DNA of 36,147 nucleotides. Source: Gammaproteobacteria bacterium. Its GTDB lineage: Bacteria; Pseudomonadota; Gammaproteobacteria; Steroidobacterales; Steroidobacteraceae. A program made the translations under genes and the position numbers. Below the pieces are notes generated by a model. The model made no database searches, was not told the DNA's origin, and saw nothing but the letters and a program-made list of their open reading frames with translations. The stretch lies in contig DAHXNE010000081.1 of assembly GCA_027366635.1 (NCBI GenBank), positions 1 to 36,147 of the forward strand, written 5' to 3'. Numbering within the stretch: the first letter of the stretch is position 1; each line of letters opens with the position of its first letter. Positions 3,374 to 33,652 of the stretch are shown in pieces.

Positions 3374-4351
3374 CTACGCAAACTGGTCGGTGGCGCTGAC
3401 GAGTTCGTGCAGCGTGCCGCGCTCGAACGCCGAATGACCGGCGTCCGGCACGATCCGCAGCTGAGCCTCCGGCCAGGCGCGATGCAGATCCCAGGCCGTG
3501 CGCATTGGGCAGATGACGTCGTAGCGCCCTTGCACAATGACGGCGGGAATGTGTCGGATACACGGCACGTCGGCGAGCAACTGCCCATCCGCCTTGAAAA
3601 ACCCCTGGTTGACGAAGAAGTGGCACTCGATGCGCGCGAAGGCCTCCGCATAGGCGTCCTTCTCGAACTTCGCAACGTAATCGGCGGCGGTGCGTAGATG
3701 GCTCGTGGCGCCTTCCCAGCTCGACCAGGCCCGGGCGGCGCGGGCGCGCACCGCTGGGTCATCGCTGGTCAGCCGGGCGTAATAGGCGCGCATCATGTCG
3801 GCACGCTCGTCGGGTGGAATCGGCTCGATGAACCGATCCCACAGGTCCGGATAGATTGCCGCCGCGCCCCCGGGGTTCTGGTAGAACCATTCCAGCTCCC
3901 AGCGGCGCAGCAGGAAAATTCCGCGCAGAATCAGCTCGGTGACGCGCGCCGGGTAGGTCTCGGCGTAGGCGAGGGCCAGCGTCGAGCCCCATGAGCCCCC
4001 GAACACCAGCCAGCGGTGGATGCCGACGTGCTCACGCAGCCGCTCGATGTCCTCGACCAGGTCCCACGTGGTGTTCTCCCTGAGCTCCGCGTTCGGGCGG
4101 CTCTTACCGCAGCCGCGCTGATCGAACAGCACGATCCGGTAGCGCTGGGGATCGAAGAAGCGGCGCATTTTCGGATCGGTGCCGCCGCCCGGGCCGCCGT
4201 GCAGGAACACGGCGGGCTTGCCTGCGGGATTACCGCTCTCCTCGAAGTAGATCTCGTGCAGGTCCGAGACCCGCAGCCGGCCGGTGCGGTAGGGCTTGAT
4301 CGGCGGGTACAGCCGGCGCGCCGGTCCCCTGGAGTGCGAGGCGCTCATCAT
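3374..4351 (-). CDS. pip: Proline iminopeptidase (alpha/beta hydrolase, peptidase S33)
   Basis: This cytoplasmic serine peptidase removes N-terminal proline from peptides. The 325-residue product has the hallmark family sequence throughout: the oxyanion-hole HGGPGGG (51-57), FDQRGCGKSRP (77-86), the nucleophile elbow GGSWGS with Ser120, the acid in GRYDVICP (Asp278) and the base in DAGHSAF (His306). Length matches the bacterial family (about 310-320). Two tandem ATG codons (4351 and 4348) are possible starts. It diverges from holA across 106 bp and runs toward the ABC importer genes with a 10-bp gap. The functional link to the importer is unclear and may be only positional. Confidence 0.95.
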   Translation of the reverse strand: MMSASHSRGPARRLYPPIKPYRTGRLRVSDLHEIYFEESGNPAGKPAVFLHGGPGGGTDPKMRRFFDPQRYRIVLFDQRGCGKSRPNAELRENTTWDLVEDIERLREHVGIHRWLVFGGSWGSTLALAYAETYPARVTELILRGIFLLRRWELEWFYQNPGGAAAIYPDLWDRFIEPIPPDERADMMRAYYARLTSDDPAVRARAARAWSSWEGATSHLRTAADYVAKFEKDAYAEAFARIECHFFVNQGFFKADGQLLADVPCIRHIPAVIVQGRYDVICPMRTAWDLHRAWPEAQLRIVPDAGHSAFERGTLHELVSATDQFA

Positions 4352-4457: not shown

Positions 4458-5459
4458 TTGAAACTCACCTCAGACTCGCTCGAGGGCCACCTCGCCCAGA
4501 AGCTGCTACCGGCGTACCTGATTTCCGGGGACGAGCCTCTGCTCGTGGCGGAGGCCGCCGATGCGGTGCGCGCGCGGGCGCGTGCGGCGGGATTCACCGA
4601 GCGGGACGTGCACTTCATCGAGCGAGCCGCCGACTGGGAGGACGTACGCGCCGCCGCGGGCAATCTCTCGCTGTTCGGGGCACGGCGGCTGCTCGAGGCG
4701 CGGCTCGCGACTGCGCGACCCGGGACCGGCGGCTCAGCCGTTCTCACCTCGCTGCTCGAGCGCGCCGATCCTGACACGCTGCTGCTCATTCTGAGTCCGC
4801 GTCTCGACCGCGACGCGCAGTCGGCTCAGTGGGTCCAGGCGGTGCAAGCGCGCGGCGCCTGGATCGCCGTGTGGCCGGTCGAGCCCGGGAAGCTCGTCGC
4901 TTGGCTGCGCGCCCGCAGCCGGCGCATCGGTGTGGATCTCGGTCCGCAGGCGCTGCAACTGCTCGCGGAGCGGACCGAGGGCAACCTGCTCGCGGCTGAT
5001 CAGGAGCTGCGCAAGCTCGTGCTGCTCGGCGCCGATGCCGAGGGCGGCGACGCGGCCCGCGCGGGGTTCGCCGACAGTGCGCGATTCGATGTCTTTCGGC
5101 TCTCCGACGCCGTGCTCGCCGGCGATCTGGGGCGCTCGCTGCGCGTGCTCGCGGGACTGCGCTCCGAAGGCACCGAGCCGACGCTCGCGCTGTGGGCCTT
5201 GATCAAGGCATTGCGCGACCTGGGCGCCGCGCTGCGGCCCGGCGCGGCCGGCGGCTGGCGGCGCTCCAGTGCGGCGCTCGAGGCGGCCGTGCGCCGTTCC
5301 GGCCGTCTGACCTTTCCGAGCCTGATGCTGCGCGCCGCGCGCGCCGACCGCATGATCAAGGGTCGGCTGCGCGGCGATTCGTGGGACGAGATGGCGTTGC
5401 TTGCGGCCGAACTGTGCGCGCGGCCGGCGTTTCCCACGCCCCAATCCATGTTCAAATAG
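4458..5459 (+). CDS. holA: DNA polymerase III delta subunit (clamp loader)
   Basis: Delta opens the beta sliding clamp as part of the clamp-loader complex. The 333-residue product aligns in my reading with E. coli HolA from the first residues (MKLTSDSLEGHLAQKLLPAYLISGDEPLL against the E. coli N-terminus) through the central TEGNLLAADQELRKL helix and a C-terminal helical region rich in Leu/Arg. The start is TTG at 4458, chosen because upstream Met codons do not exist in frame and the N-terminus then matches the family; the ribosome site is weak. In enterobacteria holA follows leuS and lptE; here pip sits divergently upstream instead. The next gene, nadD, follows after 43 bp, the usual order. 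Confidence 0.93.
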   Translation: MKLTSDSLEGHLAQKLLPAYLISGDEPLLVAEAADAVRARARAAGFTERDVHFIERAADWEDVRAAAGNLSLFGARRLLEARLATARPGTGGSAVLTSLLERADPDTLLLILSPRLDRDAQSAQWVQAVQARGAWIAVWPVEPGKLVAWLRARSRRIGVDLGPQALQLLAERTEGNLLAADQELRKLVLLGADAEGGDAARAGFADSARFDVFRLSDAVLAGDLGRSLRVLAGLRSEGTEPTLALWALIKALRDLGAALRPGAAGGWRRSSAALEAAVRRSGRLTFPSLMLRAARADRMIKGRLRGDSWDEMALLAAELCARPAFPTPQSMFK

Positions 5460-28451: not shown

Positions 28452-28479
28452 TTGAAATTCGCGCGACCACGCCCATAAT
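28452..28479 (+). promoter_or_regulatory. groESL promoter: TTGAAA-N16-CATAAT, overlapping a heat-shock-like CCCAT
   Basis: TTGAAA (28452-28457) and CATAAT (28474-28479) are 16 bp apart, a good housekeeping promoter. The same stretch reads GTTGAA followed by GCCCATAAT, similar to the heat-shock sigma-32 consensus (CTTGAA and CCCCAT), so both sigma factors may use it. Transcription would start inside the CIRCE element just downstream. Confidence 0.65.
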
Positions 28480-28505
28480 TAGCAGCCACGCAGAGAGAGT
28501 GCTAA
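28479..28505 (+). promoter_or_regulatory. CIRCE operator (HrcA site) of groESL
   Basis: The 9-9-9 layout is exact: left arm TTAGCAGCC, nine-base spacer, right arm GAGTGCTAA. The right arm is the perfect CIRCE consensus; the left arm differs from TTAGCACTC at two positions. It lies at the expected transcription start of groES, where HrcA binding represses. With the sigma-32-like promoter this suggests dual heat-shock control. hrcA itself is not in the window. Confidence 0.85.
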
Positions 28506-28562: not shown

Positions 28563-30513
<1,951 letters not shown>

Positions 30514-30518
30514 CTCCC

Positions 30519-30679
30519 CCTCTAAAGAGGTATCGATTCCGCAGCACGGAATCGCTATCATGACAACATCGGTTAGGGATTGTGCCCGACCCCAAAGCGG
30601 GGACAATCCTGAAAGACGCGGATCAAGACCCCCCTATTCCGCGCAATCCTCAAAGCCCCGCTCTGCGGGGCTTTTTTTT
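30519..30679 (+). ncRNA. Candidate structured RNA or glnE leader between groEL and glnE
   Basis: Five stem-loops follow each other: CCTC/GAGG (30519-30530, loop TAAA); CGATTCCG/CGGAATCG (30534-30554, loop CAGCA); GGATTGT/ACAATCC (30577-30609) with an inner CCCC/GGGG; CGCGGA/TCCGCG (30617-30643) with a 15-base loop containing C6; and the terminator at 30652. A TATCAT (30556-30561) could be a -10 box, which would give an RNA of about 110 nt, but its -35 is poor. The 12-base stretch at 30604-30615 recurs at 30644-30655 with one mismatch (CAATCCTGAAAG and CAATCCTCAAAG). GCGGGG at 30597-30602 is identical to the terminator's 3' arm, so it could pair with the 5' arm and prevent termination. It may be a separate small RNA, a groEL 3' product, or an attenuator in front of glnE. 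No known RNA family is recognised. Confidence 0.5.
30652..30679 (+). terminator. Intrinsic terminator after groESL
   Basis: AAAGCCCCGC-TCT-GCGGGGCTTT forms a 10-bp perfect stem with a 3-base loop, ending in eight T (30672-30679). This is the strongest terminator in the window. It lies 120 bp before glnE and thus separates glnE from groESL unless it is overridden. Confidence 0.92.
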
Positions 30680-30799
30680 CGCTTCCACGCAACACCGTGT
30701 AATGCCCTGGCGCTGCTGTCGCGGCCGCATGTTGTTGTCTCTATCCCACAGCGAGGCGCACGCCTTGCGTTCGACCCGCGCTTCAGGCTGTATGTCGGC

Positions 30800-33652
30800 A
30801 TGAGTCCCGCACTCGAGGCCTGCGTTCAGCGACACATCGAGGCCCTGGACAGGGCCGCGCCAGATTGTGTCGCTACGTTGCCGGTACAGCTTGCGGCCAG
30901 CGTGCCCCGGGTCTTTGCGGCCAGCGAGTTCGTCGCCGAGGCGTGTGCCCGGGATCCCGAGATACTCGCCGATCCGAGCGAGTGTGCGGCGCTGCTGCGC
31001 CCTCTGGAGCCCGGGGAGATCGCGCGGCTGGCCCCGCAGTTGCACGACAGCGAGGAGCAGATGCTTGCGGCTCTGCGCCGCTGGCGGCGCAGAGCCCTGG
31101 TGCGTATCGCCTGGCGCGCGCTTGCCGGTTGGGCCGACGTCGAACAGACCCTGCGGGAATCCTCGGAATTCGCCGACGCGGCCATCGCGGTCTGCGTCGA
31201 GTATGCCCGCCGTGACCTGACTCGGCGTTTCGGCGAGCCGCGCGGCCCCGACGGCGGTGTGCAGCCGTTGGTCGTTCTGGCGATGGGCAAGCTCGGCGGC
31301 CGGGAGCTGAATTTCTCCTCGGACGTCGATCTGGTCCTGCTCTTTCCCGAGCACGGCGATACCGACGGCGCGCGCTCGATCAGCAACGAGGAATTCTTCG
31401 CCCGGCTCGGCCAGGGCATGATCCGGCTGTTGGAAACCCCGACGCCCGAAGGCATCGTCCTGCGGGTGGATACGCGGCTGCGTCCCTTCGGCGGCAGCGG
31501 GCCGCTGGTTGCCAGTTTTGCGTTTCTGGAGGAATACCTGCCGTTGCACGGCCGTGATTGGGAGCGCTACGCGTACGTCAAGGCGCGAGCGGTCGTGGGC
31601 GCGGAGCGGTTCGCGGAGCTCGAAGCCGGGACGCTGCGGCCGTTCGTCTACCGGCGCTACCTCGATTACGGGGTGTTCGAGAGCCTGCGCGAGATGAAGG
31701 CGCTGATCGAGCGCGAAGTGGCGCGTCGGGAGTTGGCCGAGCATGTCAAGCTCGGTCCGGGCGGCATTCGCGAGATCGAGTTCATCGTCCAGACGTTTCA
31801 GCTGATTCGCGGCGGTCGGTATCCGCCTCTGCGCGATCCGGCGCTGCTTCCCGTTCTGGCGCTGCTCGGCCGCGAGCGGTTGCTGCCGGCGGCGCAGTGC
31901 GAGCAGTTGCGCGCGGCCTATCGCTATCTGCGCCGTCTCGAGAACGCACTGCAAATGTTCGCGGACCGTCAGGTGCACCAGCTACCGACCGATGCGCTCA
32001 CCCGCGAGCGCATTGCCCAGGCCATCGGCGAGCCGGATTGGAACGCGCTGATGGGCGCGCTCGATGTGCATCGGCGGCGCGTCGCGAGTCACTTTCGGCG
32101 CCTGATGCTCGGCACCGGGCAGCCGCCGCGGGCGGGCGTGCGCATCGATCTCGGCCGGGTGTGGGAAGATCCCGCGGAAGCCGCCAGCCTCGCCGAATCG
32201 CTCGCCCAGAGCGGCTTCGGACCGGCCGAAGATGTGGCGCGGCAGATTCTCCAATTGCGCGCCTCCGGGCTGGTGCGCAAGCTCGATGAGGCCGGTCGGC
32301 GGCGCCTGCAGACACTGCTGCCGCCGCTGTTGAGCGACATTGCCGCGGCGATCCCGGCCGGCGATGAGCAACTGCTGGTGCTGCGCAGAATCCTGGCAAT
32401 CCTCGAGGCCATGGGCAGGCGCTCAGCATACTTCGCACTGCTCGCCGAGAGTCCCGCGGTGCGCGAGCGTCTGGTGCAGATCTGCCGGCGAGGAGAGTTT
32501 CTGGCGCGCCAGATCGCCGCCTACCCGCTGCTGCTCGATGAGCTCATCGATGCGCACGCCTTCGAGGAGTTGCCGGAGCGCGCCGCGCTCGAGCGCGAGC
32601 TCGATACCGGACTCGCCCGTGCGCCCGAGGACGATCCGGAGCTGCAGGTGGAGGCGTTATGTCACTTTCAGCGCGCCGCGGTGTTTCGGGTCGCCGTCGC
32701 GGATCTGTCCGGACGGCTGCCGGTGATGCGCGTCAGCGATCGGCTGACCGAAATCGCCGCAATCATCCTGGACCGCGCCCTCGCGATCGGCTGGCGGCAG
32801 ATCACGGCGCAATTAGGCAGCCCATGCTGCGGTGCCGAGCGCCGTCCGGTGCAGGTCGGCATCATCGGCTACGGCAAGCTCGGCGGCCTGGAGCTTGGCT
32901 ACGACTCGGATCTCGACCTGGTATTTCTGCACGACTCGCGCGGCGAGCGCCAGGAGACCTGCGGCAGCCGCCCGATCGACAATCAACTGTTCTTCGTGCG
33001 CCTGGTGCAGCGGGTCGTCCATCTGCTGACGGTGCACTCGAGCGCCGGTCGGCTTTACGAGGTTGATGTGCGGCTGCGACCGAGCGGCAAGAGCGGCCTG
33101 CTGGTGACGCAAATCGACGCGTTCGCCGAATACCAGCGCAACGAGGCGTGGACCTGGGAACACCAGGCGCTGCTGCATGCGCGCGCGGTAGCCGGCTCGC
33201 ACGCCTTGTGCGCCGAATTCGAGCGCATCCGGCTCGATGTATTGCGTTGCCACGTCCGTCGGGATGAGCTGCGCTCGAGCGTGCGCTCGATGCGCGAGCG
33301 AATGCGCCGCGAGCACGCCAAGGGCAGGGTTGGCTGGATGGACCTGAAGCAGGACGCGGGCGGGATCGCGGATATCGAGTTTCTCGCGCAATACTGGGCG
33401 CTCAACTGGGCGTGGCGGTACCCGCCGGTGGCGATGTTCTCCGACACCATTCGCCAGCTGGAATCAGCGGCGTCCGCGGCCCTGGTGCCGCAGTCCACTG
33501 TGGATGCGCTGACCGGCGCCTACCGGGCCTACCGGGCCTGTCGGCACCATCTGGCGCTCGAGGGCGGGCCGGAGTGCGTCCCCGCGGAGCGGTTCAGCGC
33601 CGAACGGGCGGCGGTGAGTGCCATCTGGCAGGAGACGTTCGAGGGCCGCTAG
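30800..33652 (+). CDS. glnE: Glutamine synthetase adenylyltransferase / adenylyl-removing enzyme
   Basis: GlnE attaches AMP to glutamine synthetase when nitrogen is plentiful and removes it when nitrogen is scarce, under control of PII and glutamine. The 950-residue product (E. coli 946) has two nucleotidyltransferase domains: the N-terminal deadenylylase with GKLGGRELNFSSDVDL (about 162-177), and the C-terminal adenylylase with GKLGGLELGYDSDLDL (about 690-705). Each is followed by an RLRP block (DTRLRPFGGSG, DVRLRPSGKSG) and a helical domain (GGIREIEFIVQ, GGIADIEFLAQ). The ATG at 30800 is chosen because the open frame further upstream runs through the groESL terminator and is not family-like. 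The start has a weak ribosome site. Upstream structured RNA may affect its expression. Confidence 0.96.
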   Translation: MSPALEACVQRHIEALDRAAPDCVATLPVQLAASVPRVFAASEFVAEACARDPEILADPSECAALLRPLEPGEIARLAPQLHDSEEQMLAALRRWRRRALVRIAWRALAGWADVEQTLRESSEFADAAIAVCVEYARRDLTRRFGEPRGPDGGVQPLVVLAMGKLGGRELNFSSDVDLVLLFPEHGDTDGARSISNEEFFARLGQGMIRLLETPTPEGIVLRVDTRLRPFGGSGPLVASFAFLEEYLPLHGRDWERYAYVKARAVVGAERFAELEAGTLRPFVYRRYLDYGVFESLREMKALIEREVARRELAEHVKLGPGGIREIEFIVQTFQLIRGGRYPPLRDPALLPVLALLGRERLLPAAQCEQLRAAYRYLRRLENALQMFADRQVHQLPTDALTRERIAQAIGEPDWNALMGALDVHRRRVASHFRRLMLGTGQPPRAGVRIDLGRVWEDPAEAASLAESLAQSGFGPAEDVARQILQLRASGLVRKLDEAGRRRLQTLLPPLLSDIAAAIPAGDEQLLVLRRILAILEAMGRRSAYFALLAESPAVRERLVQICRRGEFLARQIAAYPLLLDELIDAHAFEELPERAALERELDTGLARAPEDDPELQVEALCHFQRAAVFRVAVADLSGRLPVMRVSDRLTEIAAIILDRALAIGWRQITAQLGSPCCGAERRPVQVGIIGYGKLGGLELGYDSDLDLVFLHDSRGERQETCGSRPIDNQLFFVRLVQRVVHLLTVHSSAGRLYEVDVRLRPSGKSGLLVTQIDAFAEYQRNEAWTWEHQALLHARAVAGSHALCAEFERIRLDVLRCHVRRDELRSSVRSMRERMRREHAKGRVGWMDLKQDAGGIADIEFLAQYWALNWAWRYPPVAMFSDTIRQLESAASAALVPQSTVDALTGAYRAYRACRHHLALEGGPECVPAERFSAERAAVSAIWQETFEGR

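Follow-up and report, generated by a model that had tools for sequence, protein, structure and literature searches.

The analysed stretch of DNA (36,147 nucleotides, called the window below) carries groESL followed by glnE. The stop codon of groEL lies at 30511-30513, the ATG at 30800 is probably the start codon of glnE, and the region of interest (30514-30682) sits between these two genes. The features of the locus are given here in order; the alignments and models named are described further below.

28873..30513, forward strand: groEL (Cpn60), an open reading frame with a Pfam PF00118 match of 271 bits; adjoins the small RNA (sRNA) on its upstream side
30519-30530, forward strand: stem 1, 4 bp (CCUC/GAGG) with a UAAA loop
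30523..30539, forward strand: near-invariant upstream block TAAAGAGGTATCGATTC, the putative promoter upstream/-35 region; overlaps stem 1 and the 5' arm of stem 2
30534-30554, forward strand: stem 2, an 8-bp stem
30553..30561, forward strand: putative extended -10 element CGCTATCAT, with the genus pattern CGNTANNNT
30568..30679, forward strand: small RNA of ~112 nt, as delineated by alignments A1 and A2, covariance model R1 and the order, family and class searches
30576..30610, forward strand: hairpin 1, of variable sequence and conserved fold, with double-sided changes in 9 of 12 pairs
30617..30643, forward strand: hairpin 2, a 6-bp stem with a C-rich loop (six C at 30629-30634), the presumed target-binding loop
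30652..30679, forward strand: intrinsic terminator, a 10-bp stem followed by T8, with double-sided changes in 6 of 10 pairs and 96% of cells paired
30800..33652, forward strand: glnE, the next gene downstream, with a Pfam PF03710 match of 487 bits (search run from the second codon)

Upstream of groES, a CIRCE-like HrcA operator was found on the forward strand (28479-28505), with two mismatches to the CIRCE consensus and no occurrence in 100 shuffles. Just upstream of it, a sigma32-like TTGAAA...CCCATAAT was recognized by eye. By these motifs, groESL looks doubly heat-regulated.

The original prediction, made from the letters of the window, had described five consecutive stem-loops behind groEL, one with six C in a row in its loop and the last one a 10-bp terminator with T8. 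Each of these stems was recovered on re-checking, as was the C-run, and none of 200 dinucleotide shuffles folded as well as the region 30500-30690 (z -4.00). A scan of 30000-31200 returned the terminator as the sole terminator-like site, with none between the groEL stop codon and the sRNA. Shuffled sequences averaged 0.7 such sites, so the scan by itself is no proof. Comparison with relatives did not keep the five stem-loops together, but split hairpin 1, hairpin 2 and the terminator, as RNA elements, from stems 1 and 2.

For this comparison, 99 relatives were searched with the DNA of 30450-30690, and 45 spacers of the same genus were collected by whole-region similarity; together with the window, they form alignment A1 (46 sequences). 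Two genomes were left out because contig ends cut the region (G014, L026/L055; G038, L029/L056), and two because their sequences had diverged (G005, L052; G044, L053). Alignment A2 comprises 35 of the 46 sequences. A further alignment of 48 members, A4, omits L053, L104 and the short copies fused to groEL. On A1, the named structure had 89.0% of its cells paired, and sliding the partners by 1-3 columns lowered this to 36-50%. Double-change cells numbered 147, against a shuffle mean of 57.6; none of 500 shuffles reached this count, or the value of any of the five covariation measures.

The original prediction had proposed a search for compensatory changes in homologous regions. Hairpin 1 and the terminator both covaried within the genus. 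Although its sequence has diverged between genera, hairpin 1 still folded with z below -1.5 in 43 of the 48 members. Stems 1 and 2 behaved differently. Stem 1 was nearly invariant, two of its four pairs never varying. Stem 2 had 70% of its cells paired, and 21-33 of the 46 rows lacked pairing at four of its eight positions. RNAalifold predicted no pair in the first 100 alignment columns.

In hairpin 2, five of the six pairs never vary in A1. Compensatory changes were confined to remote members, L099 and L101 having C-G replaced by U-A, and L101, L102 and L052 having G-C replaced by A-U; the loop of each keeps five or more C. A C-run of at least five was kept in L052, L099-L102 and L104, none of which had been selected by the exact pattern. 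The loci L111-L206 were fetched with the exact hairpin 2 pattern, and their hairpin 2 invariance thus proves nothing; invariance is judged here from A1 and the members found by the models. The hairpin 2 pairing itself, hardly variable within the genus, is deduced from a few remote members. In the window, the ensemble prediction left each of the first five C unpaired with a probability of at least 0.9.

Taken together, the alignments indicate that hairpin 1, hairpin 2 and the terminator form one RNA of ~112 nt, whose 5' end would lie at ~30567-30569, judging from the -10 element, and whose 3' end is placed by the terminator. Two general features of trans-acting intergenic sRNAs, namely a structure with compensatory changes (for hairpin 2 in the remote members) and an intrinsic terminator, were both present. 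A protein-coding open reading frame in frame with glnE, starting at 30560, was also considered. Among 45 relatives, the spacer-to-terminator length varied between 164 and 213 nt, and not in threes; the frame was therefore not read as protein.

Directly upstream of the RNA, the genus conserves several sequence motifs. AAAGAGGTATCGAT was found in 45 of the 46 sequences, the whole 17-mer TAAAGAGGTATCGATTC in 33, and the -10 pattern CGNTANNNT in 42. A TANNNT followed TCGAWW in all 46, at a spacing of 17 bp (43 sequences) or 18 bp (three sequences). In the latter three, a deletion has removed the original element, yet a TAACAT is present. This conservation, together with the near-invariance of stem 1 and the broken pairs of stem 2, makes it more likely that both stems represent promoter DNA than RNA structure. 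An extended -10 promoter would suit the pattern better than an RNA hairpin, although the -35 is poor: TCGATT at 30533-30538 matches only three of six positions of the sigma70 consensus. A generic sigma70 promoter scan returned nothing at the window locus. Own transcription of the sRNA in the window is suggested by the conserved promoter-like sequence.

Searches were run with two covariance models: R1, which begins past the -10 element and extends as far as the T-run, and R2, a wider model trained on 48 members; both necessarily match the members on which they were trained. R2 reached at least 45 bits in 84 of 217 Steroidobacteraceae genomes and in 9 of 25 genera, a strong match being absent in the other 16. 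By hand count, the window's genus accounts for 48 of these (out of 58 genomes) and eight other genera for 36. Scores within the family showed a gap from 47.8 to 31.6 bits. Ten genomes of the window's genus had no strong R2 match; six of them are less than 90% complete, in G038 the contig ends in the spacer, and in G044 there is a diverged candidate (L053) whose loop contains CCCCC. In a 369-genome sample of the class, the best R2 match outside the window's genome scored 34.7 bits.

With R1, 80 of 296 genomes of the order had a match at E 0.01 or better, 37 of them at 35 bits or more and 43 below 30 bits. All 37 belong to the window's family. Eight of the weak places were inspected, four of them in other families of the order. 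Of these four, L103, L107 and L109 overlap tRNA genes, and L108 is without the C-loop. In the remaining places, no clear C-loop was found in L105, L106 and L110, and L104 (genus g32) appears by eye to be a real remote member. A motif scan also matched, among other named records, five assemblies named 'Steroidobacteraceae bacterium' (L116, L162, L171, L186 and L190), a family placed by NCBI in the Gammaproteobacteria, order Steroidobacterales. As judged by these sequence searches, the sRNA family is restricted to the Steroidobacteraceae in the genomes searched. Comparison of the window with Rfam gave no match at the gathering score. Searches of open-licence PubMed Central articles on Steroidobacter sRNAs, on groEL with C-rich sRNAs and on sRNAs with C-rich loops found no description of this RNA among the matches listed, as judged by title and start of the abstract, which is not proof of absence.

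The genomic context was counted at 71 sites, those of 102 pattern sites that had a T-run within 65 nt. Among the 31 dropped sites were matches in other phyla, L142 (at a contig end) and the first L116 copy (with an interrupted T-run). The count is of sites and not of genomes, L190 and L201 entering twice and L087 and L156 being one locus counted twice; gene ends are alignment ends, with glnE taken from its second codon. At 55 of the 71 sites, groEL lay less than 1 kb upstream on the same strand, and at nine, at least 1 kb of upstream sequence was without groEL. No groEL was found in the DNA examined around the loci of genera g32 and g38, where the upstream gene encodes a Dabb protein (L101, g32) or an HDOD protein (L100, g38).

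In genus g33, all 11 loci read had TTTACA-N16-TANNNT upstream of the sRNA. The spacer sequences differ between these loci, and by sequence this is a clear, textbook-type promoter. (Motifs were read in 11 of the 13 g33 genomes and five of the six g30 genomes with a strong match.) Because of this promoter, and because of the nine sites without groEL in at least 1 kb upstream, the g33 sRNA is by sequence its own transcription unit. Genus g30 has a second copy at another locus, with GGAACTT-N17-TCT directly upstream in 5 of 5 loci read (TCTNA in four), a motif that appears to resemble the sigmaE consensus. Three loci of genus g2 carried TGAACTCT...GTCTAC/GTCTCA, a looser resemblance to the sigmaE-like motif.

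The three g30 genomes read for copy number (L190, L094 and L116) each had two sRNA copies, one behind groEL and one full copy with the sigmaE-like promoter. In L190 and L094, the copy behind groEL is reduced to hairpin 2 and the terminator; it lies ~20 nt after the groEL stop codon, without hairpin 1 or space for a promoter of its own, and the full copy follows ~700 nt farther on (the two copies of L190 are at 3966-4065 and 4698-4816). Both copies retain hairpin 1 in L116. The full copy lies behind a glyoxalase-like gene in L190, L167 and L133, as checked with Pfam in L190 only. In the genome G050 (C198), a second groEL is followed by a strongly diverged copy of its own (L102), which is one of the copies with a compensatory change in hairpin 2. 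The terminator alone was seen behind groEL in L054 and L057.

On the downstream side, the distance from hairpin 2 to glnE ranged from 59 to 5645 nt at the 53 sites with glnE downstream on the same strand (below 300 nt at 23, 300-1000 nt at seven, and 1000 nt or more at 23). An uncharacterized lipoprotein-like gene intervenes in L136, L162, L123 and L140; in L136 it has a weak Pfam beta-helix match below the cut-off. The window has too little space between sRNA and glnE for such a gene. A group II intron (Rfam RF02001) intervenes in L008 and in L010/L129, its match beginning ~80 nt behind the T-run of the sRNA and, in L129, accompanied by a reverse transcriptase/maturase. Group II introns close behind the sRNA terminator were thus present in two genomes (L010 and L129 being one). 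Terminator-linked insertion is typical of one group II intron class.

The original prediction had offered two functions for the locus, a new small RNA or an attenuator, in which hairpin 1 and an antiterminator would exclude each other and so control read-through into glnE. In the window, the required pairing of GCGGGG (30597-30602) with 30656-30661 is possible, and glnE begins ~156 nt past hairpin 2. Across the alignment, the antiterminator helix had 76.7% of its cells paired, its proposed register outperformed slid versions, and none of 500 shuffles reached its paired cells or its covariation score. However, the 6-bp register was intact in 13 of 46 rows, and at least six contiguous pairs, in any register, were found in 15 of 46 matched sequences, compared with 21% of mismatched ones and with 46 of 46 for the terminator itself. 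The longest complementarity averaged 4.76 in matched and 4.47 in mismatched sequences. Of the 19 double-change cells, a count reached by 2 of 500 shuffles, 16 belonged to a single column pair; covarying pairs and pair types were no more numerous than in shuffled alignments (392 and 419 of 500). A 12-base near-repeat, proposed as an additional alternative pairing, does exist in the window (11 of 12 bases identical), but with 3-8 of 12 in more distant rows it is clade-specific by sequence, as is the antiterminator. The position of glnE adds to this, since at 30 of the 53 sites it lies at a distance of at least 300 nt, with the lipoprotein-like gene or the intron between in many relatives, and since the 1.4-1.5 kb examined downstream showed no glnE at three loci of two other genera (L099 and L101, g32; L100, g38). 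With an antiterminator so poorly kept and a glnE distance so variable, we rejected a conserved glnE leader attenuator: there is neither a conserved, mutually exclusive antiterminator nor a fixed linkage directly upstream of glnE. Such a cis-acting element is highly improbable, and glnE has no conserved link to the sRNA.

What the comparison establishes is a covarying RNA structure ending in a terminator, with a C-loop that is invariant in the genus, at several types of locus within one family and with no Rfam family at cut-off. The promoter-like sequence directly upstream in the window and the clear promoters at other loci agree with the small RNA reading of the original prediction. We consider it likely, with a probability of about 70%, that this is a stand-alone gene for a trans-acting sRNA of a new sequence family, with an sX13-like C-loop and restricted to the Steroidobacteraceae in the genomes searched.

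Three other explanations were weighed against this one. The sRNA could be processed from the 3' UTR of the groESL mRNA and made only together with the chaperonin, not being an independent gene. Its position shortly after groEL at 55 of 71 sites, the lack of a terminator-like site between the two in the window, the reduced g30 copies that leave no space for a promoter and the second groEL with its own copy would all fit such an origin. Against it stand the near-invariant block and the TANNNT at fixed spacing, as well as the copies in g33 and g30 that have promoters and no groEL beside them, and the g32 and g38 loci without groEL in the DNA examined; on balance, we regard it as unlikely. An RNA that binds a protein, such as a sponge for RsmA/CsrA, instead of acting by antisense pairing would be consistent with the GGA within the GCGGA of hairpin 2, with weak Rfam RsmY matches (up to 20.7 bits, cut-off 57) and with a match over the full rsmX model in the relative L051 (E 0.087; 27.5 bits against a cut-off of 56). 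The conserved GGA, though, lies in a paired stem and not in an apical loop, where the conserved feature is the C-run, and the RsmY matches of the window are confined to the terminator. The sRNA could act on a protein, but the sponge reading has little probability. It is still harder to reduce the region to a terminator with chance stem-loops. A good terminator does stand behind groEL, and L054 and L057 show it alone, but the fold z of -4.0, the covariation and the family-level conservation of the C-loop hairpin apart from the terminator make this the most improbable of the explanations.

As a stand-alone sRNA, the RNA would be transcribed from the promoter just behind the groEL stop codon and would end at the terminator (30679), the latter as indicated by sequence and covariation. 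As no terminator lies between groEL and the sRNA, read-through from groESL into the sRNA is expected, and it may add sRNA copies in heat shock; the sRNA terminator would then also close the groESL operon. Hairpin 1 would serve as a structural cap, and hairpin 2 is predicted to expose the loop of five to six C. By analogy with sX13, this loop would act as an antisense element that blocks the translation of several mRNAs by pairing with their G-rich ribosome-binding regions. In 21 genomes of the genus, AGGGGGTCT-N2-10-ATG gave 31 matches, compared with 19 for the reversed control, and no recurrent gene was recognized by eye among the 30 of 31 places read; sequence evidence for targets of the C-loop is thus weak.

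A link to heat and envelope stress, through groESL read-through and the copy with the sigmaE-like promoter, is possible. More tentatively, and with well less than even chances, the RNA may be a translational regulator linked to the chaperonin, and its control may have switched between sigma factors, with a sigma70-type promoter behind groEL, a sigmaE-like one at the duplicate locus, or production purely as a groESL 3' UTR product, as in the g30 copy without hairpin 1. If so, such a regulator would tie protein folding and envelope stress to the repression of a regulon with G-rich ribosome-binding sites. The promoter swaps and duplications beside groEL also offer a good case for studying the relocation of an sRNA from a chaperonin 3' UTR to stress-type promoters of its own, or the reverse. 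The Steroidobacteraceae were seen here almost solely as metagenome assemblies, and for them the sRNA provides an aligned model and a probable seed. The family also bears on whether C-rich-loop regulation arose repeatedly.

Among known RNAs, the original prediction had named Xanthomonas sX13 and a Helicobacter RNA under the name RepG, which we take to be HPnc5490. The Rfam model of sX13 (RF02232) resembles the present RNA in its 115 positions, unstructured 5' end, three stem-loops and C5 loop. The match of the window to this model was full-length but weak (16.1 bits, E 0.27-0.53, cut-off 50 bits). The cut-off was reached by none of 99 relatives, four of which had weak matches, and one weak match was found among 14 control genomes. 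In a search of 20 relatives at relaxed E-value, sX13 was not among the three Rfam matches; the best relaxed matches were mostly driven by the terminator. The best sX13 match, L089, lies between polA and engB, is fitted better by RF02837, and was rejected.

RF02837 (anti-hemB, Burkholderia RNA 7) is likewise a short sRNA with weak similarity, scoring 13.6 bits in the window and 22.9 bits in the relative L035; at a cut-off of 49.5 bits, membership of the window RNA was rejected. The genus has a separate relative of RF02837, with matches at an E-value of 0.001 or below in 52 of 58 genomes and over the cut-off in 30 of 58. Eight of its loci were checked (L089, L090, L252-L257), five having both polA and engB and three one of them. 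The window's own genome has such a match at C86:11972-12071, with 46.1 bits, below the cut-off.

According to the sX13 report, this RNA has an unstructured 5' end and three stem-loops with C4, C4 and C5 loops, always lies downstream of polA in Xanthomonadaceae, and uses its C-rich loops to repress mRNAs with G-rich motifs, apparently independently of Hfq (PMC3771888). In E. coli, the place between polA and engB is occupied by Spot 42, as stated in the same report (PMC3771888). The present RNA instead adjoins groEL and has one invariant C-loop, that of hairpin 2, whereas sX13 carries C-rich motifs in all three loops (PMC3771888). In hairpin 1, only part of the genus has a CCCC in the loop. Membership of the sX13 family was thus rejected on score, polA locus and number of C-loops. 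Helicobacter HPnc5490 and the Staphylococcus C-rich-loop sRNAs, for which the sX13 report names the C-rich apical loop as the seed for G-rich targets (PMC3771888), share this loop and differ in phylum, their sequence relation to the present RNA being judged by Rfam alone. In layout, sX13 is the closest known RNA, and by analogy the present RNA could act in the same way.
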